Assembly: GCF_001375555.1 (NCBI RefSeq)
Contig: NZ_CTDZ01000009.1
Location: 1,915,758-1,979,757, forward strand
Length of the DNA stretch: 64,000 nt
DNA from: Numidum massiliense
Lineage (GTDB): Bacteria > Bacillota > Bacilli > Thermoactinomycetales > Novibacillaceae
Direction of reading: 5' to 3'
The notes beneath the pieces were generated by a model. That model was not told the DNA's origin. It saw nothing but the letters and a program-made list of their open reading frames with translations, and did not search any database. Below are positions 1,781 through 46,505 of this stretch, piece after piece; position 1 is the stretch's first letter, and each line of letters starts with the position of its first letter. A program made the position numbers and the translations under genes.

Positions 1781-1805
1781 CGGAAAAGGAAAAAATGATC
1801 GACAA

Positions 1806-1853
1806 AAGCGCTCGCTCTCCGAATTCAAGGGGGGGCGGGCGCTTCTTTCTTTC
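1806..1853 (+). terminator. Rho-independent terminator after the GDYXXLXY gene
   Basis: A 15-bp stem (1806-1820 with 1830-1844), continuous when G-U pairs are allowed, is followed by the T-rich run CTTTCTTTC. It lies 26 bases past the stop codon at 1780. Confidence 0.8.
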
Positions 1854-1873
1854 GGTACAATGTTGTTTTTTCG

Positions 1874-1898
1874 TAAAAATCACGCGTATGACGCGTGT
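1874..1898 (-). terminator. Terminator of the GGDEF-glycosyltransferase-kinase operon
   Basis: On the minus strand CACGCG-TCATA-CGCGTG is followed by ATTTTTAC. It is downstream of the histidine kinase stop at 1966. A second short hairpin (1919-1932, CGCGAT/ATCGCG) lies between them. Confidence 0.6.
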
Positions 1899-1965
1899 AT
1901 CACAGTGATGAACTTTTCCGCGATTTATCGCGATAAGTTTTTGACAGGCGTTTTTTTAAGTCGGT

Positions 1966-2715
1966 TTAAATTGGTAGTTTCACCGTGAACGTACTTCCCT
2001 TGCCCCATTCAGACTTAACGTCGATTCTACCACCGTGGGCGGCGACAATTTCACGCGCAATAGCCAAACCGAGGCCGGTGCCAGCAATCCCTTTATGTGC
2101 GGCATCGGCGACGCGATAATATTTGCGGAATAGGAGTGGGAATACGTGCGGTGGAATCCCGATTCCTTCATCGGCTACGTCGACGCACATATGACGATCG
2201 TCCTTGTACAGTCGCACCAAAACGCGCCCGCCGTCGGGAGAGTACTTGATCGCGTTACTGAGTAAATTGTATAACACTTGCTTGATCTTAGAGGGATCGG
2301 CTGTTACGTTCGCATCTTCCGTTCTTCGCTCGAGCAGTAGCGTATGCCGATTCGTGTACAAATTTAACGGTGTCATGGCCTCTGTGACAATATCCGCCAT
2401 GTCGATGCGCTGCTTTTGTACTATCGGTTTTGCTGCCTCTATCTGCTCGACGTCGAGTTGTTCGACGTCGAGCAAATCGTTCACGAGTTGGACGAGACGG
2501 TGTACCTCTTTATAAATCGCTGCGAGGTACTTCTGCTGCCTTTGCGCAGGTAGCGATTGATGCAACATTAACTCGGTCAACCCTAACACACCCGTGAGCG
2601 GCGTCTTTAATTCGTGGCCGAGCGTATGCATTAGGTCGAGCTTTACACGGTACAGTTCTTCTTTATACGTGGACTGATCAGTGTAACGTGCCATTTTTAC
2701 GCATATTCCTTTCAT
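1966..2715 (-). CDS. Soluble sensor histidine kinase (HisKA-HATPase)
   Basis: A 249-residue kinase without membrane helices or an obvious sensory domain. The H-box HELKTP places the phospho-acceptor at His34. The N-box is NLLSNAIKYS, the G1 box DEGIGIP and the G2 box GTGLGLA, so both dimerisation/phosphotransfer and ATP-binding domains look intact. Its ATG overlaps the stop of the upstream receiver gene as ATGA, which indicates translational coupling. An in-frame ATG seven codons later is an alternative start. With no sensor of its own, it probably receives its signal through protein contacts, for example with the coupled receiver protein. It is the last gene of the six-gene operon that starts at 10594. 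Confidence 0.85.
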   Translation of the reverse strand: MKGICVKMARYTDQSTYKEELYRVKLDLMHTLGHELKTPLTGVLGLTELMLHQSLPAQRQQKYLAAIYKEVHRLVQLVNDLLDVEQLDVEQIEAAKPIVQKQRIDMADIVTEAMTPLNLYTNRHTLLLERRTEDANVTADPSKIKQVLYNLLSNAIKYSPDGGRVLVRLYKDDRHMCVDVADEGIGIPPHVFPLLFRKYYRVADAAHKGIAGTGLGLAIAREIVAAHGGRIDVKSEWGKGSTFTVKLPI

Positions 2716-3089
2716 TCACCTGATGATAACATTCTCCCGATTTGCTGCAGTAGTTTTAGCGGACTAAACGGTTTAGGCAGAAAAAAATCGACGCCGTACG
2801 CAAGAGCCCGCTGTCGGTGTTGCGGCGTGTGCTCGGCGCTAATCATAATGACTTGCGGTGTATTGCGGCTGGACTGCGCTTTAATTTTCGCGAGTGCGTC
2901 GAAACCGTTCATGTCTGGCAACACGTAATCGAGTAGCACGAGGTCGTACGCCTCTCGTTCAATTGCCGCTAAAAAAGCCTCCTTGCCACTGGCGACGTCG
3001 ATCGCGTAACCGGCGTCTGTAAGCATGTCGCGCATCAGCATTTGTAAAACCTCTTCGTCTTCTACTACTAAAATTTTTGCCAAAGGCAC
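2712..3089 (-). CDS. Single-domain response regulator (receiver only)
   Basis: A 125-residue CheY-like protein: acidic pair near residues 10-12, phospho-acceptor Asp54 in LLDYVLPDMNG, and Lys in the LPKPF motif near residue 104. There is no output domain, so it acts by protein-protein contact or as a phosphorelay intermediate. The start is GTG, preceded by AAAGGGGG. The upstream gene ends 23 bases before it, and it overlaps the downstream kinase by 4 bases. The operon's first gene carries an Hpt domain, so an Hpt-REC-kinase phosphorelay is plausible (inference). Confidence 0.87.
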   Translation of the reverse strand: MPLAKILVVEDEEVLQMLMRDMLTDAGYAIDVASGKEAFLAAIEREAYDLVLLDYVLPDMNGFDALAKIKAQSSRNTPQVIMISAEHTPQHRQRALAYGVDFFLPKPFSPLKLLQQIGRMLSSGE

Positions 3090-3112
3090 GATTACCCCCT
3101 TTATATCAGTTG

Positions 3113-6100
3113 TTAATGCTTGGCGAATTCCCGCTGCACGATCGCGTATGATTGCTTCAACCGCTCATGGGACGACGGTGCTTCCCACGCCGGCCATTTG
3201 TACGGCTTCGCGGTACGGAGCGGCAACGTATCGCCGTCGATTGCCGGCAAGCTATCGGTGACGTTAACGATGCGCTCGAGGTCTTTAGCCTTGCCGTCTT
3301 TCGTCGGCTTGTACGTCACCGCCGCGATTTTGAAACCACCCGTTTTTTGTGACGCGCCAATGCCTTTTTGCCAGAAATCGCCCATAATTTCGCCGCGGCT
3401 CGGGTCTTTCACGTTAAGTAGTGCCCACGGCAGGCGAATTTCGACGATGTCGTTCTTCTCGCTGATGATAAAGTCACTGAGGGAATGGAACGATGCCGCT
3501 TGCGGATCGCCGTTACCGTGCTGCAATTTCCCCGTCTCTACCGCTTGAAACGGAATAAAGCGGTTTTCCGGTGCAATGTACAATTTACGGCTAATTGCGA
3601 GCCGAATCGGGTTGAACGCGTCACTATGTTTGTCGGTGGCTGCGCGCTGCCGGGGAATCATTTTTAACTCCTCGCCGTAATGGTAATAAAACGAATCGTA
3701 ATGGCTGTGTACGAGGAGGCGACTTTCTTTCGTCCCGTTTAAGTGAAGTATGAAGTCGACTCCGCTATCGGTCTTTAGGTTCGTCTGAAACGGCAACTCG
3801 TTACTCCCTTGCCCGGGAATCGTATCGAACAAGCGGAGCGTGTGGCTCTTTTTCGGATCGTATCCTTTTAGCGAACGATAGTCGAGGCGCAAGTACAAGT
3901 AAGCCTCGTCACTCGTCGCATACAAGCGCTCAAGCGTGCGCATGTCGTCGGCGCCGTCGCCTAAAGCAGCGAGGGGACGACTCTTTTTCTCGTGCAACGG
4001 TTCAAGCGATTGCTCCTCCCAATCGTCTGCCTTTCCGTCTAGTCGGATCTTAAGTTTGTCCGTCCCCGGGTCAAAACTGAGCAGTCCGTAATGCTGTTCA
4101 CTCGTTTGCTTGTTAGACCAAAGTGGGCGCCGGTCGGCGTTGTCGTAATCCATCGTGTTCCACGTGCGTTTAAACCACTCGTCTTGCCACGAAAAAATCA
4201 GTCCACCGGCTAGCCCTTCTTGAACGATCGTGCGAAACTGCTTGGCCACCATTTCCCCTTGTTCTTTTTCCGTGAGCCCACCTTGATCCATCCCGTGTAC
4301 GCTTTTGTGCGTGATACCGCGCGACGACGGGACACCAAATTCGGCGACGAGGATCGGCATGCGGTGCGCGCGGTGTAAGTCGCGCAAGTAGCCGGCGTAA
4401 TTGTTCTTCTCGCCTTCTTTGTCTACGAAATTTGTGTAAGCCGGGTCGACATTTAAATTGTCTGGATAGTACGGATACACGTGGTACGACGCAAATTGAC
4501 CGGCTAAGTGACGCTTCGTCGGCGCGATCACATGCGGATCGACACTCACTAAGTCTTCCTTGTCGTGCGGTTCATACGGGTGCTCCAGTAAATCTGTCGT
4601 CACCCAGTTCGTAAAACTGATGGGCCGTTGCCAGCGATACCTCTCGGTCTCGTAAGCTGCGGCCGCCTCCATGCGCGCTGCCACCCAGCTTTCAAACGGA
4701 TGCGCGCCGTGCGCCCTAAAATACTTACCTTGAAAGTCAGCCATCCCGCGATGTTTTTTGATCGTTGCCTGGACGACGTCTGGATCCCACTCAATCCCTA
4801 AAATCCAGCCGAGGACGTACGGCGATACGTCCGCCGTATACTTGCCGCTCGCGTACCCTTTGCGCACGGGTAAATCTGCCTTGCCGTGTACGACGTCGAT
4901 CGTCTCTTGGATCGCTTGGTCTACCTGCTTCACGACATTGTCGGCATAGGCGTCTTTGGCGGCGAGCAGCGGCTCTTCATCGACCCACACGCCGTGGAAC
5001 AAGTAGAGCGGTGCTGCAGCCTGTTCATTGTACGCCTTAAGTGCCTCGTAAAATTCAGGGGGGTGGAGCGTATACACTCGCACCGCGTTGGCGTTCATCG
5101 CGCCAATTTGCTTAAACCAGCGTAAGTACTCTTCTTTCGTAATCGCCATTTCGCCGGGAAAGTGACCAGGCTTGGCAATCCCCATGTTGACCCCTTTAAT
5201 TAACAGCTCCTCCCACTTACCATTTTTGTAAACTTGCAGCTTTTCCTTGCCAACGGTGCCCGCAAGGGAGAGACCATCTACTTTTTTGATCTGAAAGGTC
5301 TTAGTCGTTTCCTTCGCTGTAGCCCCGGCGTGATCGTGCGCCGCAACGGTCCGCGCCTCGTGCGTTTCGGCCAAAATCGCCTGCATCATCGGTACGTACA
5401 CTTTCCAATAAAACGCCTCTTGCCCGACTTCGTCACTCGCGGCAAGCCATTTTTTTACGGTAGTGATCCCGGTGTACGCGTGCACCTCGGGAACGTTCTC
5501 CCCACCCGCAAAATCTCCAGCAAAATAATATGTATGTGTGCCGCGGACAACCGCTGGCGCGGTCGTTGGAAGGCCGTGCTGACGCAATTTTTGTTTGCCG
5601 CTTTCCTTTGTGTCGATGACATACTCGGCGAGCACTTCTTTCTCTTTCTCTTTCTCTTCCTCTTTCTCTGCACCTGTGCCATCTGTGTCATCTGTGTCGA
5701 GCGGCTCGACCACGTCAAACCACCCGTGGTAGCGTACCTCTTCGTCTAAGCCAAACGCGTCTCGCCCTTTTTCTGTAAAACGAAGTTTTATGTCACCTTC
5801 GGCTAAGTCGCGTGCGGTGAGGACGACGATGTCATCCCGTTCGCTGACAAACAGCGCGCCTTTCCCTTGGTACGCCCACTTCTCGCCCGTCTGTGCTTCG
5901 TATTTGTCGACGACCCATGCGGGAACTTTTCCGCCACGGGCGAGTTCATCGTAATAACGGCCGATCCACCCGCTCCACTTCACGCCGAGCAAGTTATACA
6001 TCGTCTCTTTAGCCGTTTGTTCGGTCGGGTTGCCAAACGAATTAAATTCGGCGACGACCGTCGTCCCATTTGCTGCCGCTTCGGCAATCGCCGCCGCTTC

Positions 6101-6526
6101 GCGCCGCTCCAGTCCGCCGTAAATGAGCGCGGAACGCTTTCCGCTTTTCGTTCCATCGCGCTGCTCGTCCGCATAGACGCCGTAAGCGTCGGCTAAGTAA
6201 ATCAAATCTTGTTCGTCAAACACTTGAGGTAGCTCTTTAATTTTGTAATCGCCGTTGCTTTTAGGGTGGTAGCCGTAATAGTCACTTTCTCCGTCATACG
6301 GTTTCCCCGTCTCGCGCTGCACGAACTTTTCGTTATTCAACACCCACGCAAACCCTTTATGTCGCTCTTGCCCGCGTTCTGGCACGGTTTTGTCTACAAT
6401 CGCCACATTTAGGCCACGTTCTGGAGATAATAACCAAACAATTTTCGGGAGGAAAAATAACGCCGCGACAATCGCGGCGACTCCCACAAACCAGATCAGC
6501 CCGCGGTAATTGCTCCATCTTCCCAT
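3113..6526 (-). CDS. Membrane-anchored glycoside-hydrolase-like protein, 1137 aa
   Basis: The start is the ATG at 6526, which overlaps the glycosyltransferase stop as TAATG and has AAAGGAG at good spacing. The open frame runs 35 codons further up inside the previous gene. One N-terminal transmembrane segment (about residues 8-30) anchors a large extracellular part. The middle region looks like a TIM-barrel glycosidase: WFKQIGAMNANAVRVYTLHP, then LGWILGIEWD, LVAEFGVPSSRG and GLIFSWQDEWFKRTW, which resemble barrel strands with candidate catalytic acids. The C-terminal part is beta-rich and may bind carbohydrate. A lysine/glutamate microsatellite (DNA 5635-5690) encodes an E/K run. The family was not recognised. 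Position directly after a GT2 synthase suggests polysaccharide processing or export (inference). Confidence 0.75.
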   Translation of the reverse strand: MGRWSNYRGLIWFVGVAAIVAALFFLPKIVWLLSPERGLNVAIVDKTVPERGQERHKGFAWVLNNEKFVQRETGKPYDGESDYYGYHPKSNGDYKIKELPQVFDEQDLIYLADAYGVYADEQRDGTKSGKRSALIYGGLERREAAAIAEAAANGTTVVAEFNSFGNPTEQTAKETMYNLLGVKWSGWIGRYYDELARGGKVPAWVVDKYEAQTGEKWAYQGKGALFVSERDDIVVLTARDLAEGDIKLRFTEKGRDAFGLDEEVRYHGWFDVVEPLDTDDTDGTGAEKEEEKEKEKEVLAEYVIDTKESGKQKLRQHGLPTTAPAVVRGTHTYYFAGDFAGGENVPEVHAYTGITTVKKWLAASDEVGQEAFYWKVYVPMMQAILAETHEARTVAAHDHAGATAKETTKTFQIKKVDGLSLAGTVGKEKLQVYKNGKWEELLIKGVNMGIAKPGHFPGEMAITKEEYLRWFKQIGAMNANAVRVYTLHPPEFYEALKAYNEQAAAPLYLFHGVWVDEEPLLAAKDAYADNVVKQVDQAIQETIDVVHGKADLPVRKGYASGKYTADVSPYVLGWILGIEWDPDVVQATIKKHRGMADFQGKYFRAHGAHPFESWVAARMEAAAAYETERYRWQRPISFTNWVTTDLLEHPYEPHDKEDLVSVDPHVIAPTKRHLAGQFASYHVYPYYPDNLNVDPAYTNFVDKEGEKNNYAGYLRDLHRAHRMPILVAEFGVPSSRGITHKSVHGMDQGGLTEKEQGEMVAKQFRTIVQEGLAGGLIFSWQDEWFKRTWNTMDYDNADRRPLWSNKQTSEQHYGLLSFDPGTDKLKIRLDGKADDWEEQSLEPLHEKKSRPLAALGDGADDMRTLERLYATSDEAYLYLRLDYRSLKGYDPKKSHTLRLFDTIPGQGSNELPFQTNLKTDSGVDFILHLNGTKESRLLVHSHYDSFYYHYGEELKMIPRQRAATDKHSDAFNPIRLAISRKLYIAPENRFIPFQAVETGKLQHGNGDPQAASFHSLSDFIISEKNDIVEIRLPWALLNVKDPSRGEIMGDFWQKGIGASQKTGGFKIAAVTYKPTKDGKAKDLERIVNVTDSLPAIDGDTLPLRTAKPYKWPAWEAPSSHERLKQSYAIVQREFAKH
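5633..5692. repeat. CTCTTT microsatellite inside the GH-like gene
   Basis: Repeated TCTTTCTCTTTC on the plus strand gives an in-frame run of Glu and Lys between two domains of the membrane-anchored protein. A change in copy number by six would keep the frame. Confidence 0.75.
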
Positions 6527-7944
6527 TACTGTGATACTCCTTTTCGCGTCATTTTTCCCCACGACCGCTTGCGGCTCAGCAACTGTCCGAACGCTTCCAC
6601 GCGCCAAAAGACGGTGAACAGACGGTACCAAAACGGTTCAGACAACGAATACACCGTAAGAGACGCCATATCTCTAATGCGTGGGTATTTGCGCAGGCTC
6701 CACTCTTCTAGCAATACGGCACCGACTGACAACAGCGCCCCGTACAAAAACGTCAACAAAAATAGTAAGAGTGAAAAAGTCATGTACACGCCACCGAGAA
6801 ACGGTCCGATGAGCATGATCAAGTAGCCAGCTAACTCGACGAGCGGTCCGAGCAATTCGAGAAAGACGTAGTACGGCAGTGAAAGCATGCCGACGGCGCC
6901 GTATGTCGGATTGAAAATCATCCGCTTGTGACACCACAAACTTTCAAACAGACCGCGATGCCAGCGGTTGCGCTGTTTGCGCAACACGGCGAGCGATTCC
7001 GGCGCCTCTGTCCAACAGACGGGGTCGGGGACGAAAACGATGCGCTTCTTTAACTTATTTTTGCGAATGTGGCGATGTAAACGCACGATCAGTTCCATAT
7101 CTTCCCCGACTGTATCGGTACGGTACCCGCCGACGTCTTTCACCGTCTGCTTGTGGAACACGCCGAACGCACCGGAGACGATCATCAAAATGTTAAAGCG
7201 ACTGAGGCCTACTCTTCCGACGAGAAACGCGCGTAAGTATTCGATCACTTGCATGACGACGAGCGGCCGTTTACTTAAAGCAACTTTCACAATTTCCCCG
7301 CGTTCGATGTGACAGCCGTTCGCGATGCGCACGCTGCCACCGCTAACGACTACTTCGTCCTCTGCGTCGATAAACGGCTTCATCACTTTTAAAAAGGCGT
7401 CGCGCTCGATGATCGAGTCCCCGTCGAGCGAACAAAAATATGGGTAGTGGGAAAAGTTGATCCCCGCGTTTAACGCATCTGCCTTGCCGCCGTTCTCTTT
7501 GTCGAGCACGTATAAATGGTCGAGTAACTTTGAGCGGTACACTTTCTGCACTAGTTTCGTTTCCAGATGTCGTTCATAAGGAATTGTCGTTTCTACGAGA
7601 TGAAACGCATCGATCAGTTTTTGCAGTGTACCGTCGTCGGAACCGTCGTTAATGACGATCACTTCGTACGTCGGATACGATGTGCTCAGTAAAGAACGGA
7701 CGCTCGCAACAATCCCTTTTTCTTCATTATACGCTGGAACGAGAATCGATACGGGTTTCGTCTCCGTCGCTGTCGACATCTCCCGGTAGACGGATGGCTT
7801 GTGTACGCGCGACTCGCGCTTCAGCTGTACCGCGGCGACGACGAACATGACGAGGTAAAATAAAATATTAAACGCTGTCAAAACTAAAGCGACATAACCA
7901 AGTATTTTAATGCCGTAGACGAACGCGCTAACGAACGCTTCCAC
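6526..7944 (-). CDS. Processive GT2 glycosyltransferase (PgaC/BcsA-like)
   Basis: 472 residues, with an N-terminal membrane helix pair and three to four helices at the C terminus around a cytoplasmic GT-A domain. The family-2 signature is complete: DGSDDG near residue 101, DGDS near 176, GEDME near 280 and QRNRW (the Q/RxxRW motif) near 325. This set is typical of processive synthases of beta-linked polysaccharides such as cellulose, poly-GlcNAc or hyaluronan. The polymer cannot be read from sequence. The start is GTG with GGGAGAGG upstream. The gene follows the HEAT-repeat gene by 41 bases and overlaps the next gene. Co-transcription with a GGDEF protein suggests control by c-di-GMP. Confidence 0.88.
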   Translation of the reverse strand: MEAFVSAFVYGIKILGYVALVLTAFNILFYLVMFVVAAVQLKRESRVHKPSVYREMSTATETKPVSILVPAYNEEKGIVASVRSLLSTSYPTYEVIVINDGSDDGTLQKLIDAFHLVETTIPYERHLETKLVQKVYRSKLLDHLYVLDKENGGKADALNAGINFSHYPYFCSLDGDSIIERDAFLKVMKPFIDAEDEVVVSGGSVRIANGCHIERGEIVKVALSKRPLVVMQVIEYLRAFLVGRVGLSRFNILMIVSGAFGVFHKQTVKDVGGYRTDTVGEDMELIVRLHRHIRKNKLKKRIVFVPDPVCWTEAPESLAVLRKQRNRWHRGLFESLWCHKRMIFNPTYGAVGMLSLPYYVFLELLGPLVELAGYLIMLIGPFLGGVYMTFSLLLFLLTFLYGALLSVGAVLLEEWSLRKYPRIRDMASLTVYSLSEPFWYRLFTVFWRVEAFGQLLSRKRSWGKMTRKGVSQ

Positions 7945-7985
7945 TTCTGTCCTCTCCCATCTTTTCTTCCAGTTAAATGATACGG

Positions 7986-8981
7986 TTAAACCGTTAAACG
8001 CTGCCGCGCTTCGCGAGATTCTTCAGCTTGACGCTGATTGGTGCGCGCTCGCGCATCCAACACGTCTGTCGCCACTTGCCGTACGTGCCAACACGCGTCA
8101 TTCGCAAGGCGATTGAGTAACAACTGGCTTTCTTTATCGTTCACGGTCGCTAATAATTTAGCCGCAAACAGACGCTCTTCCCACACTTCCGAACGGACCG
8201 CGCGGGTCACGATGCGCACATCCGGTAAGTACTCTAACTTACTTAGCGCCTTTAACGCTCGAATTCGCGTTTCGGCGTCCTCTGCTTGCGCAAAAGCGAT
8301 TAACCGCTCCGCGTGCGTCAGCCGCTTTTGTGCACCGATGACATCGATGAGGGCATAGCGTACGCGCGACGTATAGTGGGCACTATCTTCTAACAGGCGG
8401 GTGAATAGCGGTTCCTGTAACCGATTAAAGATCGTCTGATAATAAAACGACGGCAATTCGTGCGGTAACGTTTGCAAATACGTCAACAACTTTTCTTGCT
8501 GTGCATCTGCCGCGATTTTTAACAGTTGAATCGCTTCCGCTTCGGTTTGTTTGCGCCGCTCCCAAAGTGTCGCCAGTTCTTCGCTTAGAGTCGACATACG
8601 AAGCTGTTCGATTCCGTACAGCGCATTCATGCGGGTCCCCCAATTGGAACTGCGCAAACATTTACGGTAGTAGTCCGTTAAATGACCTTCGGCAAAACGG
8701 GTTACCCGCTCGAAATCGTCGCCTTTGAGTACAGCGCTATAGCTGATCAAAATTTCCGCGAGTCCGTCGTAAGTGTCTGCCGACTGCAACACTTTTTCAT
8801 TCAGCGGTTCGCCAGTCGTTATGTGCGTAAAAACGCGGCCTCGATGTGCTGCTTTAAACTGCTCTTTTTGTGCCGTGCGACGATTATTGTGCCATTTTTT
8901 AACGATAAGGCCGACGAATAATAGGACGAGGGCACCCGACAGCACAAAAATGATGTTTACGAGCAATAACACGGTATCCAT
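7986..8981 (-). CDS. Membrane-anchored HEAT-repeat protein
   Basis: The start is the ATG at 8981, which overlaps the GGDEF gene stop as TGATG and follows GGGAGGAG. The longer open frame lies inside the previous gene. The 331-residue product has one N-terminal transmembrane segment (about residues 3-25, VLLLVNIIFVLSGALVLLFV) followed by a cytoplasmic alpha-solenoid. HEAT-type helix pairs recur (for example TRIRALKALSKLEYLPDVRI and RLFAAKLLATVNDKESQLLL). HEAT solenoids are scaffolds. Between a c-di-GMP gene and a polysaccharide synthase it could dock the two at the membrane (inference). No catalytic motif was seen. Confidence 0.8.
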   Translation of the reverse strand: MDTVLLLVNIIFVLSGALVLLFVGLIVKKWHNNRRTAQKEQFKAAHRGRVFTHITTGEPLNEKVLQSADTYDGLAEILISYSAVLKGDDFERVTRFAEGHLTDYYRKCLRSSNWGTRMNALYGIEQLRMSTLSEELATLWERRKQTEAEAIQLLKIAADAQQEKLLTYLQTLPHELPSFYYQTIFNRLQEPLFTRLLEDSAHYTSRVRYALIDVIGAQKRLTHAERLIAFAQAEDAETRIRALKALSKLEYLPDVRIVTRAVRSEVWEERLFAAKLLATVNDKESQLLLNRLANDACWHVRQVATDVLDARARTNQRQAEESREARQRLTV

Positions 8982-37632: not shown

Positions 37633-38835
37633 TTACAACACTTGGCGCACGCGTTCCAACGCCCAATCGATGTCCTCTTTCGTAATCGTCAGCGGCGGCG
37701 CAAAACGAATAATCGTGTCGTGCGTCTCTTTACACAACAGGCCGACTTCTTTCAACTTCTCACAGTACGGACGCGCATCTTCGTCGAGCTCGACCCCGAC
37801 CAACAAGCCACGGCCACGTACGTCGCGAATGTGCGGGTTATCGATCTTTTTCAGCTCGTTCAGCAAATACTCGCCCATTTTTGCCGCATTTTCAATTAAG
37901 TTTTCCTCTTCAAGTACGGCGAGCGCTTCTAAAGCGATGGCACAGCCGAGTGGGTTGCCGCCGAACGTCGAGCCGTGGGATCCGACATTCCACACCTTAA
38001 AAATATGTTCGTTCGCCGCGACTGCCGACACTGGAAAGACGCCGCCACCGAGCGCTTTCCCCATAATGTACAAGTCAGGTTCGACCCCTTCCCAGTCACA
38101 CGCGAACTTGCGCCCCGTCCGGCCGAGTCCGGTCTGAATCTCGTCGGCGGCAAATAAGACATTATTCTCGCGGCAAACATCGTACGCCTCGCGCAAATAC
38201 CCTTCCCGCGGAATGATGATACCGCCTTCGCCTTGAATCGGCTCGAGTAAAAACCCAGCAGTATGCGGCGTAATCGCCTGTTTTAGCGCTTCCAAATCGC
38301 CGTAAGGAATAATTTTAAAGCCCGGTGTCAGTGGGCCGAAGCCGCGCTTGTACTCCGCCTCCGCCGAAAAGGAAATAACCGTCGTCGTCCGCCCGTGGAA
38401 GTTACCGGCACAGACGATAATCTCCGCTTGGTTTTCTGGTACGCCTTTCTCAAAATAAGCCCAGCGACGCATCGCCTTTACCGCCGTCTCTACCGCTTCG
38501 GCGCCAGCGTTCATCGGCAGGATCATATCTTTGTTTGTGAACGCTGTCAATTTGCGAAAGAACTTCCCTAAATTCTCATTGTAAAAAGCGCGGGACGTCA
38601 GCGTAATTTTGTCCGCTTGCGCTTTCAGCGCACCGATGATGCGCGGGTGGCGGTGCCCCATGCTTAACGCCGAATAGGCACTAAGCATATCCATATAGCG
38701 CTTCCCTTCTACGTCCTCCACCCAGACGCCTTCCCCTTTCGCCAAGACGACGGGCAATGGACAATCGATACGCGCCCCTAACTTTTCGTTGTCACGAATA
38801 ATACTTTGCGTCATCGTCGTGTTCGCTTGCGTCAT
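37633..38835 (-). CDS. rocD: Ornithine aminotransferase
   Basis: Transfers the delta-amino group of ornithine to 2-oxoglutarate to give glutamate semialdehyde. 400 residues of class III PLP aminotransferase, with [37 protein letters not shown] and the PLP Lys in [15 protein letters not shown] near residue 258. The overall sequence is of the RocD type and not of the GABA-transaminase type. The ATG follows GAGGGGGAG. It lies 138 bases downstream of the aldehyde dehydrogenase, which could oxidise its product or a related semialdehyde. The 37359-37632 gap downstream holds only a weak palindrome (37598-37614) and nothing else recognised. Confidence 0.92.
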
Positions 38836-38973: not shown

Positions 38974-40452
38974 CTAATTGTTGTCGATTTGTGCCCGCTG
39001 TAACGTGCCACTGTAATCGACGTAAATGCTCTTCCATTCCGTAAATACATCTAAGGCGGCCACACCGGAATCGCGGTGTCCGTTTCCGGTCCCTTTCGTC
39101 CCGCCGAAGGGCAAGTGAATTTCGGCCCCCGTCGTACCGGCGTTAATATACACAATCCCTGTGTCGAGATCGCGCATCGCCGCAAACACTTGATTCACAT
39201 CGCGCGTAAAGATCGCACTGGACAAGCCGTAAATGACCCCGTTGTTTACTTCGATCGCTTCTTCGAGACTACCGACCGGGATGATTGAGATAACCGGTCC
39301 GAAAATTTCCTCCTGCGCAATGCGCATCGTCGGTGCGACGTCCGTAAACAGTGTGGGCTGATAAAAATTCCCCTGTGCCAACTTACCGTCGGCCGCGATT
39401 TCACCGCCGCATAACAGACGCGCCCCTTCTTCCTTACCAATCTTGACGTAGCCGTGGATTTTGTTTAACGCCGAGCGGTTAATGACCGGTCCGACATCGA
39501 CCGTTTCGTCGAGTCCGTCCCCGAGAGTCAACGTTTTAATCCGTTCCAGCAACAGCGACTCTAACTTCTCTTGCACCGCCCGGTGGACGATGACGCGGCT
39601 CGTCGCGGTACACCGTTGTCCGCTCGTACCGTAACCGCCCCAGACGATGCCGTCTACGGCTAACTCCAAGTCGGCGTCGTCCATGACGATAATCGCGTTT
39701 TTGCCGCCCATCTCCAACGAGACGCGCTTCAGCTGCTGGCCGCCTTTCGCTGCCACGTTGCGCCCGACTTCCGTCGAACCGGTGAACGAAATGACGTCGA
39801 TGTCCGGATGGGCGAGCATCGCTTCCCCGACAACTTCCCCTGATCCACAGACGAGGTTAACCACTCCCGCCGGCAATCCAGCTTCGCTCAATATTTCGAC
39901 TAGTTTTTGCGCCATAAACGGCGTTTCCGTCGCCGGTTTCCACACGACCGCATTGCCCGCGACGATCGCTGGGAAGATTTTCCACGTCGCAATCGCAATC
40001 GGGAAGTTCCACGGCGTAATTAAGCCGGCCACACCGAGTGGCGCACGCACGCTCATCGCAAATTTGTTCGGCAGTTCGGCGGGAGTCGTTTCCCCGAACA
40101 AGCGCCGCCCTTCTCCGGCCATGTAAAAGGCCATATCGATACCTTCCTGCACCTCACCGCGCGCTTCCGAAATCACTTTGCCCATTTCCTTCGTTAACGT
40201 TTGTGCGAGCTCTTCCTTTTTCTCCCGCAACAACGCTCCGATTGCAAACAGCGTCTCTGCCCGCTTCGGTGCTGGCACGAGGCACCACTCTTTTTGTGCT
40301 TTCACCGCTGCGGCCACGGCTCGGTTTACATCTTCCTCACTCGACTGGGCGACTTGTCCAAGCACTTCGCCTGTCGCCGGATTAATGACGTCGCGGAAGC
40401 GTTCTGTTTCTGACGGCAGCCACACACCGTCGATATAGTTGACACATTTCAT
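38974..40452 (-). CDS. NAD(P)-dependent aldehyde dehydrogenase
   Basis: 492 residues of the ALDH superfamily. Catalytic Cys is in GQRCTATSR (near residue 280), the general base Glu in SLEMGGKN (near 247), and the NAD site in FTGSTEVG. The C terminus VFTEWKSIYVDYSG places it with semialdehyde and 2,5-dioxovalerate/aminoadipate-semialdehyde-type enzymes. It probably oxidises a semialdehyde formed in amino-acid or sugar-acid breakdown; glutamate semialdehyde from rocD is one option. The ATG follows AGAGGGGG. A sigma-54 promoter lies about 90 bases upstream. Confidence 0.9.
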   Translation of the reverse strand: MKCVNYIDGVWLPSETERFRDVINPATGEVLGQVAQSSEEDVNRAVAAAVKAQKEWCLVPAPKRAETLFAIGALLREKKEELAQTLTKEMGKVISEARGEVQEGIDMAFYMAGEGRRLFGETTPAELPNKFAMSVRAPLGVAGLITPWNFPIAIATWKIFPAIVAGNAVVWKPATETPFMAQKLVEILSEAGLPAGVVNLVCGSGEVVGEAMLAHPDIDVISFTGSTEVGRNVAAKGGQQLKRVSLEMGGKNAIIVMDDADLELAVDGIVWGGYGTSGQRCTATSRVIVHRAVQEKLESLLLERIKTLTLGDGLDETVDVGPVINRSALNKIHGYVKIGKEEGARLLCGGEIAADGKLAQGNFYQPTLFTDVAPTMRIAQEEIFGPVISIIPVGSLEEAIEVNNGVIYGLSSAIFTRDVNQVFAAMRDLDTGIVYINAGTTGAEIHLPFGGTKGTGNGHRDSGVAALDVFTEWKSIYVDYSGTLQRAQIDNN

Positions 40453-40773: not shown

Positions 40774-42777
40774 TCACATTGACACTTGCTGCTGTGCGGC
40801 TACCGTCGGCACATCCGGCTTCCGGCGTTTTTGTATAAACCATATGACGGCGACTAGCAACAGCGCAATCAGATCGGTATACAAGTCTTTGGCGATAAAC
40901 ATTAAACCGGCGCCGAACATGACGATTCGTTCCCACCCGTGCGATATGCGGATGAAGTATCCGATCACCGAGCTACTAATTGCCGTCATCCCGACCGCAG
41001 TCGTGAGCAACGACCAGACGATCCACCCGTCGACGTCGACGAGGACGATCATCGGATTGTACACGAAGGCGAACGGCACAATAAACGCGGCAATCGCTAG
41101 CTTAACCGCCATCACGCCCGATTGAAACGGATTCGCACGCGCGATGCCTGCCCCCGCATATGCGGCCAAACAGACGGGGGGCGTAATGTCGGCGATAATG
41201 CCGAAATAAAACACGAACAAGTGCACCGCCATCGGTGCCACTCCGAATTCGTTAATGAGCGCCGGCGCCGCAACAGTGGCCGTCACGACGTAATTCGCTG
41301 TCGTCGGCAAGCCCATCCCGAGGACGAGACAAGCGATTGCCGTAAAGACGAGCGCCAAAATTAACTGTCCGTTCGCCAGGGCGATAATACCTGAAGCAAA
41401 TTTGTTGCCGAGCCCGGTAATGCCGACGACGCCGGCAATAATTCCGGCACAGCCGACGGCCGCGATGACAGGTAAGGCGATGCGCGCTCCCTCCTCAAAC
41501 ATCGCGATCGTGGCACGCAAAGACATGCGGGTCTCTTTTTTCAGTAAACTGACTGCAAATGCCGTGACAATCCCCATCAACGCCGCTTTCTGCGCGGTGA
41601 AACCGGACAATAACGTCAAAATAATAATGATTAGCGGTAGGATTAAGTAGCCTTTTTTTAGTGCTAATTCTTTCAAACTCGGCAGCATATGTTTCGGAAG
41701 CCCGATCACACCTTGCTTTTTCGCTTCGAGGTGCGTACCGATAAAGATGCCAGAAAAATATAGCACTGCTGGAATGGCCGCCGCCAACATAATCGCGGAA
41801 TACGTCACATTCAAGTACTCAACCATGATGAACGCCGCGGCACCCATAATCGGCGGCATGAGCTGGCCACCAGTAGACGCCGACGCCTCAGTCGCCGCCG
41901 CGAACTCCGGTTTAAACCCCGCTTTTTTCATCATCGGGATCGTAAACGAACCCGAGGCGACCGTGTTCCCGACTGAACTCCCTGAAATCATCCCCTGGAA
42001 GGCGCTTGCGATGACAGCCGCTTTGGCTGTTCCTCCCGTAAAACGGCCTGTCGCGGCAAAGGCAATGTCGTTAAAAAACTGGCCGATTCCGGAGCGAACG
42101 AGCACCGTGCCAAAAAACAAAAAAAGGAAGATAAACTTGGCCGATATTTGTACCGGTGTCCCAAATACCCCGTTTTCGCGAAACCACAAATCGGTCATAA
42201 TCTTATCAAACGTAAAGCCTTGGTGCGATAAAATTTCCGTCGGTATGTAATTGCCGAGTAACGTGTACAAAATGGCGATCGAAGCGACAACGACGATCGG
42301 AATACCGACTGTCCGACGTGTCGCCTCCAGTAAAAGTAACACCCCGACAATAGCTACTATAATCGCTTGGAGCGGGTAATCTTGAGTGCGCGCAGCTAAT
42401 ATTTCGTCAAAGTATAAGATCTTGTAGTACCCGACGAATATTGCCGAAAACGCTAACAACACATCATACCAAGGAACACCTTTTTGCTTCTGTTGCCACC
42501 CTTTTTTTGCCGGATATAGTAAAAAGATAAGACCTAGTGCGGTCCCGACGTGGATCGCCCCTTGTATTTGCGTCTGAAATACACCGCGGTATCCAGTATA
42601 GAGATGGAATAACGTGAGGTATACGGCGAGGAACATGACAACCCACGACCACTTGCCGATCTGCTTGCGATAGCCGCTCTCCCGGTCGTACTTTTCCAAT
42701 AAAGCTTGGGGGTTCACATTCCCTTCGGTGTCCTTATTAGCGTCGGGTACGACATGTTCTTGTTTGTTTTCTGCCAT
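40774..42777 (-). CDS. TRAP transporter fused permease (TAXI type)
   Basis: 667 residues with about 16-18 hydrophobic segments, a fusion of the small (4TM) and large (12TM) TRAP permease subunits as found with TAXI binding proteins. Characteristic loops include GMISGSSVGNTVASGSFTIP and MKKAGFKPEFAAATEASAST, then GMGLPTTANYVVTA in the second half. It imports a carboxylate or amino acid with a sodium or proton gradient. The ATG follows AAGGCGG. It is 91 bases downstream of its binding protein. The substrate may be glutamate or another organic acid, judging by the catabolic neighbours (inference). Confidence 0.93.
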   Translation of the reverse strand: MAENKQEHVVPDANKDTEGNVNPQALLEKYDRESGYRKQIGKWSWVVMFLAVYLTLFHLYTGYRGVFQTQIQGAIHVGTALGLIFLLYPAKKGWQQKQKGVPWYDVLLAFSAIFVGYYKILYFDEILAARTQDYPLQAIIVAIVGVLLLLEATRRTVGIPIVVVASIAILYTLLGNYIPTEILSHQGFTFDKIMTDLWFRENGVFGTPVQISAKFIFLFLFFGTVLVRSGIGQFFNDIAFAATGRFTGGTAKAAVIASAFQGMISGSSVGNTVASGSFTIPMMKKAGFKPEFAAATEASASTGGQLMPPIMGAAAFIMVEYLNVTYSAIMLAAAIPAVLYFSGIFIGTHLEAKKQGVIGLPKHMLPSLKELALKKGYLILPLIIIILTLLSGFTAQKAALMGIVTAFAVSLLKKETRMSLRATIAMFEEGARIALPVIAAVGCAGIIAGVVGITGLGNKFASGIIALANGQLILALVFTAIACLVLGMGLPTTANYVVTATVAAPALINEFGVAPMAVHLFVFYFGIIADITPPVCLAAYAGAGIARANPFQSGVMAVKLAIAAFIVPFAFVYNPMIVLVDVDGWIVWSLLTTAVGMTAISSSVIGYFIRISHGWERIVMFGAGLMFIAKDLYTDLIALLLVAVIWFIQKRRKPDVPTVAAQQQVSM

Positions 42778-42868: not shown

Positions 42869-43876
42869 TTACTTCGTTACATCGTCCAGACTGTTAATCC
42901 CCGTCGCTTCCCGCGTGACGATTTGGATGACCTCAGGGTAAACGTGCCCGATGAACGCAAAGTTTTTCACGGGTTTTTTGAATTCCGCCTTCCCGTTTAA
43001 GGCGTTGTGAGCCGGAACGTGCACCGTCATGCCGATATCTTGCGCCCCGTCGCCAATGCTCTTTAAGTTTTCAAGGGAGGCCCCCGTTTCCGTGTTCGTC
43101 ACGTTTACACCGTCAATGTGCTTGTTCCACAACCCGGCAATTTCCCCACCGAGGGGGTAATACGTCCCGCCTTGACTACCGGTGCCAAGGGTGAACTCCT
43201 TTTTCCGCTCTTTCGCATCAGCCTTTACTTCCGCTACCTCTGCATCGACTTTAAGCCCTTGCTCTTCAAAGTAACGCTTCGAACCCGGGTGAATCGGAAG
43301 CCCTTCTAACCCGTTGAGCGCGTTTTCCAGCGTCATTTCTTTCGCTTGTGCGTGTGTGTTTTCACCCGCTTTTTCATACATCGTCTTCGTCAGTTCATAA
43401 GCGAGTTCTTCGTCAATCGTATCGGTGTTCACGACCATGATCGCGTAGGCGGTCACCGTTTGCACGTCTTCTTTTAAAAAGTCATAGCTGTCTTTCGGGA
43501 TGATATACTTCCTGTAGGCACTTTTTTCCTCAATTTTTTTGATCGCTTCATCGGATAACCCTAACAACTTCACGTCTTTCGCCGACGCTTGCAAATCAGT
43601 GATCGAACCTGCTGGCAACCCTAAGACACCGACTGAAATATCGATATTGCCGTCTTTCAACCCGTCCATCGCGTCGCCAAACGCTTCCTGAAACTTCTCG
43701 TAATCGCCCTCTTTCAAACCGTAAGCTTCGAAGATGAGTTTTGACACGGACTGCGTTTCACTCGCCGGCGGTCCGACGGCAATCTTCTTTCCGCCACCCC
43801 CAAAAATGTTACACGCGGATAGTACCATCACTAATGCAACACAAAGTGCGATTACTGATACAATTTTTCGCTTCAT
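42869..43876 (-). CDS. TAXI-family solute-binding lipoprotein, circularly permuted order
   Basis: 335 residues with a signal peptide and lipobox LSAC. After a short Gly linker the mature protein starts with IAVGPPASETQSV, which is normally the middle of a TAXI protein. It runs to the usual C terminus (PIHPGSKRYFEEQG), then a charged linker DAEVAEVKADAKERKKE, and only then the usual N-terminal motif FTLGTGSQGGTYYPLGG. The stop follows GINSLDDVTK, where a normal protein continues with GKK-IAVG. All parts of the fold appear to be present once, so the gene reads as a circular permutation. The ATG follows GAGGAGG. It feeds the TRAP permease downstream. Confidence 0.87.
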   Translation of the reverse strand: MKRKIVSVIALCVALVMVLSACNIFGGGGKKIAVGPPASETQSVSKLIFEAYGLKEGDYEKFQEAFGDAMDGLKDGNIDISVGVLGLPAGSITDLQASAKDVKLLGLSDEAIKKIEEKSAYRKYIIPKDSYDFLKEDVQTVTAYAIMVVNTDTIDEELAYELTKTMYEKAGENTHAQAKEMTLENALNGLEGLPIHPGSKRYFEEQGLKVDAEVAEVKADAKERKKEFTLGTGSQGGTYYPLGGEIAGLWNKHIDGVNVTNTETGASLENLKSIGDGAQDIGMTVHVPAHNALNGKAEFKKPVKNFAFIGHVYPEVIQIVTREATGINSLDDVTK

Positions 43877-43964
43877 CTCGTTTCCTCCTCTTAACGTGTC
43901 TCTTGCACTTTTGATTACGAACCACGCGCTTTTCCCGTTTCGTTACGAAAGCGACTGTCACAAC

Positions 43965-44062: not shown

Positions 44063-45487
44063 TCACTTGCTACTTCGCCCTCGCAACAGCACCCTGTCGA
44101 TCGCCCGCTCGTGGGCGTCGACCGTGTATTGAATGTCCGCGCTGCTGTGTGCGAGCGAAAGCGAATAGCGGTTGAGCGGCTTGCAGTAAACGCCTACGTT
44201 CAGTAGCTCCTCATCGATTGCCCGGCGCAGCGCGGTGTCGGCGTGCCACATGTCACGGCAGTTGGCGACTGGTCGCTCCGTCAACACGATGTTAAAAATG
44301 CTCCCCATCCCGCACGTTTGCATCGGGATATCGCGCCTCGCGTAAACGTCTTCCAACCCTTTGCGCAACTGATTTGTATGAGCGAATAACTGCTCTAACT
44401 GCCCGGGCTGTTCTAACAAGTCAATCGTCGCTAGTCCCGCTGCTAGTATGAGTGGGTGACCGTTGTACGTGCCGCTGTGGAATAAGACGTCACTAGCACT
44501 ACCGTCTCGTACACCGAGCTGTACGCCGTCCTCCCTTCCCGCTGTCAAAATGTCTTGCCCCTCGCGCGGGTCACATTGCGCCATCAGCTCGCGCTTACCT
44601 CCGACGGCTCCGATCGGAAAACCGCCGCCGAGCACCTTTCCTAACGCGGTAAGGTCGGGAGTGACTCCGTACACTTGCTGCGCCCCGCCGAGGGCGACGC
44701 GAAACCCTGTCTTCACCTCGTCGAAAATGAGCACAATCCCCAATTGCTCCGTAACGGTGCGTAAACCGCGCAAAAATGCTGGCTCCGCGGGAATAAACCC
44801 ACCCTCGACAGGTTCCAAAATAACTGCAGCGACATCATTGGCGTTTTCTTGCAAAAGGCGTGCCGTCGCCTCTAGGTCGTTAAACGGTAACGCGAGCGTC
44901 TCTCTTTGCACATAGTCGGGAATCCCTTTCGATGCCGCCACTGCGTGTGGTCGCCGCCGCTCTCCCCCTCGCTCGCGCTCCGGATGGACACTGAATAGCA
45001 CTTGATCGTATCCCCCATGATAATGGCCCTCGAACTTTGCGAGCTTCCGTCTGCCTGTATGCGCCATCGCCAAGCGAATCGCGAACTGCGTCGCCTCCAT
45101 CCCGGAATTCGTAAAGCGCACGCGCTCGATCCCGGCATAGTGGGCGATTAACTTCTCTGCCATCGCCGTCTCCAACTCACACGGGGCACCAAATACGAAT
45201 GTCCCGGCAGCCGCTATGTGTTGTTCGACCGCCGCAAGCACTCGCGGGTGACCGTGCCCCAACATGAGCGCGCCATAACAAAGTGCGTAATCGATGTATG
45301 CGTTACCATCGACATCGAACAGCCTGCTACCACTCCCCCGCTTCATGACGATTGGATGCGGTGGAAAATACTTAATGTTCGCCGTCACACCCCCTGGAAT
45401 GACCTTACACGCCTTTTGAAAAAGCTGAGCAGAACGTTCGCGCATCCGCGAAACAGCTAGTGACGAATGACCGTCAGCGCCCAACAT
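44063..45487 (-). CDS. HemL-like class III aminotransferase
   Basis: 474 residues from the ATG at 45487, seven bases after GGGGG; the frame opens 37 codons earlier. It resembles glutamate-1-semialdehyde 2,1-aminomutase: IPGGVTANIKYFPPHPI, FTNSGMEATQFAIRLA, LIFDEVKTGFRVA, and the PLP Lys in ALGKVLGGGFPIGA near residue 283. No other haem genes are nearby. The setting (TRAP transporter, RpiR regulator, aldehyde dehydrogenase) suggests a catabolic aminotransferase or aminomutase of the same subfamily. A short insert REDGVQLGVRDGSASD (DNA 44495-44545) interrupts the conserved LFHSGTYNGHP region. A haem role cannot be excluded. Confidence 0.8.
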   Translation of the reverse strand: MLGADGHSSLAVSRMRERSAQLFQKACKVIPGGVTANIKYFPPHPIVMKRGSGSRLFDVDGNAYIDYALCYGALMLGHGHPRVLAAVEQHIAAAGTFVFGAPCELETAMAEKLIAHYAGIERVRFTNSGMEATQFAIRLAMAHTGRRKLAKFEGHYHGGYDQVLFSVHPERERGGERRRPHAVAASKGIPDYVQRETLALPFNDLEATARLLQENANDVAAVILEPVEGGFIPAEPAFLRGLRTVTEQLGIVLIFDEVKTGFRVALGGAQQVYGVTPDLTALGKVLGGGFPIGAVGGKRELMAQCDPREGQDILTAGREDGVQLGVRDGSASDVLFHSGTYNGHPLILAAGLATIDLLEQPGQLEQLFAHTNQLRKGLEDVYARRDIPMQTCGMGSIFNIVLTERPVANCRDMWHADTALRRAIDEELLNVGVYCKPLNRYSLSLAHSSADIQYTVDAHERAIDRVLLRGRSSK

Positions 45488-45644
45488 GACCAGACCCCCA
45501 CATGAATGTAATGTAGTCACCACTTTTTGAAAGCGGTTACCTAAAGTATATTCTGGTAACATCAATTTTGCAATGATTATTTCAAAAAGAGGCGTCATAT
45601 AAAATTTTTATTTCAGTTTGTAGGGGAATATCCTTGTAGGCGAC

Positions 45645-46505
45645 TCAATTTTTTTTGTAAAAGACGTGGAAGTGATCCCAAATATCTTCCAGTTCACGAA
45701 GTCGTCCGTGAAAATCGTCGATTTTTTGCTTGCCGACGTACGCGATTAACGCATTAATTAAACTGAGTGGCGCGGCAAACGAATCGATAAACGTCGGCAT
45801 GCTGCTCTGCGCATAAAAGGCAACGTCAGCGTAAGGAACGAGCGGAGACAGCACGTGATCCGTAATGACGAGGACTGTCGCGCCCTTTCCTTTCGCGTAA
45901 GAGACGATGTCGACAGTACTTTGCACATAGCGGGAAAAACTAATGCCAACAACGACATCCGTCTCGTCTAACGCATATAACTGCTCGTAAGTCGAATGAA
46001 CGGACTGGACATGCTTCGTGTTCCCTAAGATGATGTCCAAGTAATATTGCAGAAAAACTGCTAAGGACACGGCGCTGCGACTCGCGACGATGTACACCTT
46101 TTTCGCGTTTAAAAGCGCTTCCGCGGCACGCCGAAACGACTGTACATCTAGTTGTTCCATCGTCGTACGCAGGTTGGCGAGGTCGTCTTGCAACACTTCG
46201 TAGATGACTTTTTCTTCCTCGCTATACACATCGACAGACATCTCCAGTCGTTCAACCGTCGTCAGTTGCCTTTCGAGCGATTCGACGAGCTGTTGCTGTA
46301 ATTCCGGATAGCCGGAAAAGCCGAGGAAGGTCGCAAAGCGAACGACCGTCGCTTCACTCACTCCCGCCTTGTGCGCTAATTTACCGACCGTAAAAAAAGG
46401 CACGCTGTACGGGTTTTGCAAAATATACTGCGCAATTTTTACGTGTGATTTACTCATTTGCGGCATTTTCTCGGCAATCTGTTGATCAATGTGAGACTTG
46501 GTCAC
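45645..46505 (-). CDS. MurR/RpiR-family transcriptional regulator
   Basis: 286 residues. An N-terminal HTH_6 domain (FFTVGKLAHKAGVSEATVVRFATFLGF) is followed by a SIS sugar-phosphate-binding domain (VYIVASRSAVSLAVFLQYYL, then DVVVGISFSRYVQSTVDIVSYA). RpiR regulators sense phosphosugars or related metabolites. The start at GTG 46505 has no clear ribosome-binding site; in-frame ATGs at codons 14 and 17 are less likely because HTH helices begin there. It lies just upstream of the aminotransferase and TRAP genes on the same strand and probably controls them. Confidence 0.88.
   Translation of the reverse strand: MTKSHIDQQIAEKMPQMSKSHVKIAQYILQNPYSVPFFTVGKLAHKAGVSEATVVRFATFLGFSGYPELQQQLVESLERQLTTVERLEMSVDVYSEEEKVIYEVLQDDLANLRTTMEQLDVQSFRRAAEALLNAKKVYIVASRSAVSLAVFLQYYLDIILGNTKHVQSVHSTYEQLYALDETDVVVGISFSRYVQSTVDIVSYAKGKGATVLVITDHVLSPLVPYADVAFYAQSSMPTFIDSFAAPLSLINALIAYVGKQKIDDFHGRLRELEDIWDHFHVFYKKN

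Follow-up and report, generated by a model that had tools for sequence, protein, structure and literature searches.

TAXI solute-binding proteins (SBPs) work with TRAP permeases, and VcGluP was assigned by its authors to Cluster F (PMC11574862). According to the available text of that report, lobe 1 of VcGluP comprises residues 29-115 and 268-328 and lobe 2 residues 132-254, while the hinges correspond to residues 116-131 and 255-267; the claw of the permease VcGluQM is predicted to dock the receptor. Natural circular permutation has been described in another class of binding proteins. TpMglB-2 (Tp0684) is, like the protein reported here, a tethered, two-lobed binding lipoprotein with a naturally permuted chain, in that case specific for glucose. 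It was proposed as Type Ic / Cluster Bc, with relatives in Gram-positive bacteria. It binds glucose and changes shape despite the permutation, which its authors considered a possible adaptation to membrane anchoring (PMC4990184, available text). Similarly, the glycine betaine-binding proteins 2B4L (OpuAC), 1R9L and 1SW1 are two-lobed and permuted relative to one another (PMC2395249). The terms "permut" and "circular" are absent from the main text of the TAXI papers PMC11574862 and PMC12344293, and no permuted TAXI/TRAP binding protein was found in the literature covered, which included few subscription papers and no preprints. Natural permuted binding proteins are already known, and none appears to have been reported for TAXI/TRAP.

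The gene described here belongs to Numidum massiliense and lies in a stretch of 64,000 nucleotides, the whole of which is called the window. Its product is very probably a TAXI-type solute-binding lipoprotein whose chain is naturally circularly permuted and which serves the adjacent fused TRAP permease.

The gene and the order of its two halves

The open reading frame runs on the minus strand from an ATG at 43876 to a stop codon at 42869 (335 codons), which matches exactly the gene located at 42869-43876 by a previous sequence-only reading of this DNA. The following parts were assigned:

42869..43876, minus strand: TAXI solute-binding lipoprotein with a circularly permuted chain of 335 aa, stop codon included in the span
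43880..43889, minus strand: probable ribosome-binding site, AGGAGG-like, coding strand AGGAGGAAAC, read from the sequence
43811..43876, minus strand: signal peptide and lipobox, residues 1-22 (LSAC22)
43253..43792, minus strand: former C-terminal part, residues 29-208 (PF16868 110-289; 8s4j chain 116-298)
43202..43252, minus strand: charged linker, residues 209-225 (17 aa), bridging the former C and N termini
42878..43201, minus strand: former N-terminal part, residues 226-333 (8s4j chain 6-115)

Cys22, which is invariant across an alignment of nine permuted proteins, is presumably the lipidation site. Residues 29-208 correspond to lobe 2, the second hinge strand and the C-terminal helices of lobe 1, and residues 226-333 to the binding strands of lobe 1, the first hinge strand and the terminal helix. 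In pairwise comparisons, either 15 or 17 residues of the linker were aligned.

The protein scored 230.5 bits against the Pfam model PF16868 (cut-off 27) and 241.0 bits against the NCBIfam model TIGR02122 (cut-off 84.35), in both cases as two stretches. The best profile stretch extended from residue 28 or 29 to residue 207 and matched positions 110-289 of the 289 positions of PF16868, i.e. the C-terminal end of the model. Of the TAXI family model, the C-terminal 62% is covered by residues 29-208 and the N-terminal part by residues 226-333. When the genome was searched with the profile, positions 110-289 of PF16868 came first in the reading direction, followed by 1-115. Solved TAXI proteins also align to the permuted protein as two exchanged pieces (three chains with alignments). 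In the alignment with one of them, 8s4j, residues 28-208 correspond to chain residues 116-298 and residues 228-333 to chain residues 6-115.

As a control, the letters of the permuted protein were rearranged into the ordinary order and scored again. The rearranged protein matched PF16868 in a single stretch covering positions 1-289 of 289 with 244.7 bits, and TIGR02122 in a single stretch with 254.3 bits, both above the native scores. A single colinear full-length family match was obtained only after rearranging and not with the native protein, which places the latter in a circularly permuted TAXI subfamily rather than among the ordinary members. At the junction, residue 333 pairs with chain residue 115 of 8s4j and residue 28 with chain residue 116. 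Ordinary relatives, with sequences such as ...DLKGKKVAIG..., have one or two residues between the two parts. Since the pieces of the permuted protein meet within a residue, hardly any sequence was lost at the cut.

These results agree with the sequence-only reading, which had placed the C-terminal part before the N-terminal part with a charged linker between them (PF16868, TIGR02122 and 8s4j all give this swapped order), had described two ends that abut as expected for a permuted gene, and had counted every part once, as is the case. A family alignment with both segments in ordinary order had been named as a possible refutation; in PF16868, TIGR02122 and the solved chains, the segments do not align in that way. 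It should be mentioned that the family models score the permuted protein well. The scores of the swapped stretches are simply added together, so that the rearrangement stays hidden in annotation.

Occurrence and origin of the permuted order

Full-length permuted relatives, colinear with the window protein, were found at seven named loci (62-69% identity in the best segments), which belong to Siminovitchia fordii, S. terrae, S. fortis, Bacillus norwichensis, Bacillus sp. HF117_J1_D, Sporosarcina quadrami and Oceanobacillus jeddahense. In addition to these loci, 35 genomes carried a permuted gene, the window's own included, among them G001 (70% identity) and G052 (67%); genome handles and named loci may overlap, and L012 and L054 are identical tree rows. 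A full-length permuted match was present in 7 of 398 sampled Bacilli genomes (the window's genome counted), in 32 of 250 genomes of the family of G286 (four of them shared with the Bacilli sample) and in 1 of 15 genomes of the order of G052, namely G052 itself. In the phylum sample, only the window's genome among 398 carried the permuted gene (E ≤ 1e-50). A survey of the phylum with PF16868 gave matches in 103 of 249 genomes; the matches listed in that survey, in which split matches rank low, were near full length and in ordinary order. Among 345 plasmid records, identity was below 60% throughout and the 20 listed were two-piece matches. In an alignment of nine permuted proteins, the other eight were 63-71% identical to the window protein, and per-column identity averaged 81%.

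The permuted gene is patchy in the family of G286, where the 32 positive genomes fall into 3 of 19 genera. This suggests losses or transfer among Bacilli.

Selection on the permuted genes was assessed by dN/dS (NG86) over the mature protein in 11 pairs. Nine pairs gave ratios of 0.012-0.048, with low values for each half, while the other two were saturated. One of the latter was the window gene against that of G001, for which the ratio comes from the C part alone (0.068). The linker is under weaker constraint, with dN/dS up to 0.34 in one pair. The relatives of the window gene are under purifying selection.

The oddity of the order could in itself suggest an assembly or sequencing artefact, or a relic of a decayed, broken locus, and the window's genome does contain three other full TAXI genes. 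A second full TAXI gene had in fact been named in the sequence-only reading as a sign of an assembly join, but the three genes are in ordinary order and distant from the permuted one. The same order, which had been suggested as something to look for in related genomes, was found at the seven named loci and in 34 other genomes. It recurs in independent assemblies from several genera, including seven single-contig genomes (G001, G464, G535, G543, G566, G569 and G601), which argues against an assembly join, and decay is at odds with both the low dN/dS of the nine pairs and the intact frame, lipobox and ribosome-binding site. An artefact or a relic is hardly conceivable in view of these data. Judged from the genomes compared, the swapped order is no error; the rearrangement is genuine and of old evolutionary origin.

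In order to place this rearrangement, an unrooted SBP tree of 56 rows (27 permuted and 29 ordinary) was obtained with both parts set in ordinary order. The 27 permuted rows formed one clade (100/100), located inside a 37-row clade (100/100) together with ten ordinary rows. A single order change suffices in this tree, and this holds in 100% of 200 bootstrap trees. As the trees are unrooted and the change counts are blind to gain versus loss, it could be argued that the permuted order came first in this subfamily and later reverted to the ordinary one, or that several permutation events took place. However, the 29 ordinary rows hold every outer row, ordinary order is also that of the listed phylum matches and of the three solved TAXI chains, and one change is enough in all the bootstrap trees; an ancestral or repeated permutation is highly improbable. 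Since all the outer rows have ordinary order, the permuted one is regarded as derived, although the root was not inferred. The permutation most likely arose once, in Bacilli, within an ordinary-order TAXI subfamily. No permuted TAXI protein branching outside this subfamily was found in 398, 250, 15 and 398 genomes (partly overlapping samples, strict E-value limits).

Quick trees built from each part separately recovered the same two clades. SH-aLRT values for the permuted clade were 100 (N part) and 99 (C part), and those for the clade including the ordinary kin were 99 and 100, respectively. The concordance of the half-gene trees, which holds at the subfamily level, indicates that a single gene was permuted rather than two genes joined, and a chimera of unrelated genes is ruled out by these trees. 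A second half taken from a different TAXI gene would be a closer variant of this idea; a chimeric origin was raised by the authors of TpMglB-2, in which the permuted part shares only 13% identity with its counterpart (PMC4990184, available text). In the present case, both halves join the permuted clade to the same ten ordinary kin, to which the halves of the window protein are 44-63% (N) and 51-58% (C) identical, making such an exchange very unlikely.

Regarding the course of the permutation, the sequence-only reading had suggested tandem duplication of the gene followed by loss of the outer parts. This course fits the order found, but neither an intermediate nor a remnant was detected. Among the matches in the genome samples, no genome with both forms or with a tandem double gene was seen, in searches that were not built for double genes, and no genome of the Bacilli and family samples carried a permuted gene together with a close ordinary one (E ≤ 1e-55, best 5-8 candidates per genome). 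Leftover TAXI fragments were searched by tblastn with three TAXI proteins in the masked permuted loci and the window, giving only weak matches (best E 0.33) once the trivial upstream end of the permuted gene's own open frame was excluded. The same reading had described the window as full of tandem duplications, which does not hold in a helpful sense: Tandem Repeats Finder (longest period 500) gave 14 entries, whose periods were 6-46 bp and which all lie outside the gene. The simplest account would be that the order changed inside the original transporter locus.

Two consecutive TAXI-TRAP systems were observed in Siminovitchia fordii and Bacillus norwichensis (L007, positions 1301-8221, and the same part of L008). 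The first consists of an ordinary TAXI gene from a distant branch, followed by a small gene and a permease; the second is the permuted gene with its own permease. The ordinary gene beside the permuted one was considered as its duplicate and ruled out because of its distant branch.

Permease, predicted fold and binding site

The genes surrounding the permuted gene in the window are:

40774..42777, minus strand: fused TRAP permease, 667 aa (TIGR02123, 700.6 bits, cut-off 320.65)
44063..45598, minus strand: class III (HemL-like) aminotransferase (PF00202)
45645..46505, minus strand: RpiR-type regulator, HTH_6 and SIS (PF01418, PF01380)
38974..40452, minus strand: aldehyde dehydrogenase, downstream of the permease (PF00171)
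37633..38835, minus strand: ornithine aminotransferase, RocD-like (TIGR01885, 511.3 bits, cut-off 378.4)

As described in the sequence-only reading, a TRAP permease lies downstream, and this protein, well over the TIGR02123 cut-off, is the presumed partner of the permuted SBP. A fused permease was found downstream, within a few hundred bases, at every permuted locus examined. In the permease tree, the 27 of 55 rows located downstream of permuted genes formed one clade (100/100), which adjoins the permeases of the same ordinary kin and that of L067. The match of the window permease to the claw domain DUF3394 (PF11874) was weak and below the cut-off (14.6 against 28.2 bits), so that this permease is probably without a claw. 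Binding proteins can also stimulate membrane receptors (PMC9602780, available text), and the permuted protein might accordingly act as a sensor or receptor outside transport. The constant presence of the fused permease and the concordant permease tree make this role very improbable, and the permuted protein is most likely a working TRAP receptor.

The aldehyde dehydrogenase and the RocD-like gene are likely to share the operon of the permuted SBP; a gene 82% identical to the dehydrogenase is present elsewhere in the G001 region. The RpiR-type regulator and the HemL-like aminotransferase are directly upstream of the SBP in the window. Homologues of both adjoin the SBP-permease genes in five of seven ordinary regions (G108, G094, G046, G230 and G170), in orientations that differ among regions, and the pair is missing in G301 and G868. 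The identities to the window's proteins were 49-64% for the regulator and 52-64% for the aminotransferase (the five ordinary regions and G001). Of 15 permuted regions, two have the pair close to the permuted gene, namely the window and G001, in the latter a few kilobases upstream; the other 13 regions, some with short flanks, were without it. The window gene has kept the neighbours typical of its ordinary kin.

Two further observations were made on these genes. The frame of the HemL-like aminotransferase (44063-45598) encodes 511 aa, compared with 460-469 in homologues; its true start is probably downstream of the start of the open frame, and the protein seems to have an extra stretch near its middle. 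In L084 (positions 1587-4580, genome G199), an ordinary SBP (352 aa) and a permease (645 aa) share one reading frame of 998 aa with a single stop codon (TAG) between them, so that receptor and permease are nearly fused.

The position of the cut was determined in VcGluP numbering, obtained by adding 28 to the chain number and hand-checked on S40, Y45 and S75. The cut maps to VcGluP 143/144, just inside lobe 2 and past the first hinge, so that both hinge crossings would be retained. Since both old ends are in lobe 1, the 17-residue linker can join them. The lobe split along the chain is lobe 1 in ordinary TAXI proteins and lobe 2 in the permuted one. An AlphaFold2 model of the permuted protein was of moderate quality, with pLDDT 62.4 and pTM 0.64 for the best of five (7 sequences in the alignment) and pLDDT 34-42 for the other four; an ordinary-order control modelled from a single sequence gave pLDDT 43. 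Two long strands of the model fall where the hinges are expected:

43427..43465, minus strand: predicted hinge strand, residues 138-150 (ordinary hinge 2; AlphaFold2, mean pLDDT 62)
42911..42961, minus strand: predicted hinge strand, residues 306-322 (ordinary hinge 1; AlphaFold2)

As the model is moderate, it is chiefly homology that points to a retained fold. The Foldseek ranks of TAXI chains for the permuted model were 32 (4ddd), 42 (9ibp) and 49 (9ibo). In an order-dependent alignment, no TAXI chain was among the 50 rows listed, which is expected for such an aligner and is not evidence in itself. The top four rows were all OpuAC (Z 10.3-10.9, residues 24/30-335), tied within 1 Z with 4h1x and other two-lobed proteins. 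As the lobes are similar in fold, a chain permuted by half a turn may resemble an ordinary binding protein, as far as the weak model can indicate. The OpuAC family (PF04069) did not match the native protein at E ≤ 10. The rearranged letters reached 21.5 bits, just over the cut-off of 21.2, which is read as distant superfamily kinship.

As the sequence shows, the chain begins with the first strand of lobe 2, at what is the ...DLK|GKK... junction of ordinary proteins, continues through lobe 2, the old C-terminal helices of lobe 1 and the 17-aa linker, and then through the old N-terminal part of lobe 1, ending where ordinary proteins enter the first strand of lobe 2. The two lobes would still form a clamshell with both hinge crossings, and a small organic or amino acid would be bound between them and handed to the permease. 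In the ordinary kin, the lipid anchor sits on a long leash before lobe 1; here it would hold lobe 2 by a short one.

The 13 contact residues named for VcGluP (PMC11574862, available text) were mapped by a hand-read alignment. Six are identical in the window protein (the equivalents of S40, Y45, Y46, S75, E125 and G203) and seven differ (V44, Q93, H123, G156, D157, Y200 and M201); those of lobe 2 all differ except G203. The equivalents of Y45, S75 and E125, namely Y239, S267 and E315, are invariant in the 27 permuted rows. Loss of Q93 costs VcGluP 990-fold in affinity (PMC11574862). At this position Val285, followed by His286, is present in 27/27 permuted and 10/10 close ordinary rows, showing that the Q93 difference predates the permutation, and most of the seven differences are common to the close ordinary kin. 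Owing to these differences, the identity of the VcGluP ligand is not transferable to the window protein, which probably binds its ligand in a way unlike that of glutamate in VcGluP.

Ten positions, selected by our own filter, set the permuted rows apart from the close kin. The sharpest of them are Ala38 (27/27 permuted rows, Gly in 9/10 close kin), Glu40 (24/27, Gly in 7/10) and Asn261 (27/27, Ala in 9/10). Residues 38 and 40 belong to the binding loop just past the new N terminus, and their change in the permuted clade suggests that the function may have shifted.

The gene neighbours vary by lineage, with aminotransferases and a dehydrogenase in the window. Several relatives have near the permuted gene what we take to be an M20-type hydrolase and an SDR. 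The gene directly upstream of the permuted one in L012, L075 and L076, presumably an M20-type peptidase or amidohydrolase, is 78-82% identical among the three loci. This upstream gene is a possible ligand clue, pointing to an N-acyl amino acid.

Membrane anchoring and comparison with known permuted binding proteins

The leash, measured from the lipid cysteine to the first strand, has 6-18 residues (median 7) in the 27 permuted rows and 23-37 (median 30) in the ten close ordinary kin, without overlap. In the 19 wider ordinary rows it has 7-47 residues, overlapping the permuted range. Since these rows share ancestry, possibly with a single event behind the change, the small P value of the contrast in length is no test of adaptation. 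The permutation could be a neutral accident, the permuted protein working as well as the ordinary one and the short leash being a by-product; this contests only an adaptive reading and is compatible with the proposed permuted receptor. Natural permutants mostly retain function (PMC2395249, available text) and one event cannot demonstrate adaptation, but the leash is short in all the permuted rows, with no overlap with the close kin, and the two binding-loop positions changed alongside it. On balance, a neutral origin is rather likely. It is possible, though doubtful, that the permutation represents an adaptive swap of the anchor, with lobe 2 pinned near the membrane and fixing the seat of the clamshell on the permease while lobe 1 moves. 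The neutral origin is at least as likely as this one. If anchor-swapping were true, the permuted proteins would constitute a class of their own, a permuted "Cluster F", as the counterpart of Type Ic, and their still-close ordinary-order orthologues would be natural control partners. The anchoring idea put forward for TpMglB-2 can be examined in the TAXI case by comparing close relatives.

Compared with TAXI SBPs such as VcGluP (PMC11574862), both halves of the window protein are homologous over nearly their full length and a fused TRAP permease is likewise adjacent. With respect to the ordinary TAXI kin, the lipobox is the same, while the halves are swapped, a 17-aa linker is present, the new ends are in lobe 2 and the leash is shorter. 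The TAXI-GltS protein BP0403 (PMC12344293) is, as far as its available text goes, likewise an architectural variant of TAXI, with extra N-terminal domains and a GltS partner. TpMglB-2 is an ABC-transporter protein of Cluster B (type I); its fold class and break point are different, its chain crosses the hinge a fourth time and its permuted part is poorly conserved (PMC4990184, available text); the TAXI case belongs to TRAP and both parts are well conserved. Considered as a member of Type Ic, the window protein has the swapped order but not the Cluster B fold, its solved relatives being TAXI chains and its own fold a modelled one.

The betaine-binding proteins are also ABC-transporter proteins and share 13-16% identity with the permuted TAXI protein in the model alignments. 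Their pairs are less than 24% identical (PMC2395249, available text), compared with approximately 50-60% between permuted and close ordinary TAXI proteins. The permutations of TpMglB-2 and of the betaine-binding proteins are thus visible only after sequence drift (13% and <24% identity, respectively). In the TAXI family, the closeness of the two forms and the homology of their permeases allow direct tests with natural orthologues, in which the effect of the permutation on folding, ligand binding, membrane anchoring and docking could be evaluated.
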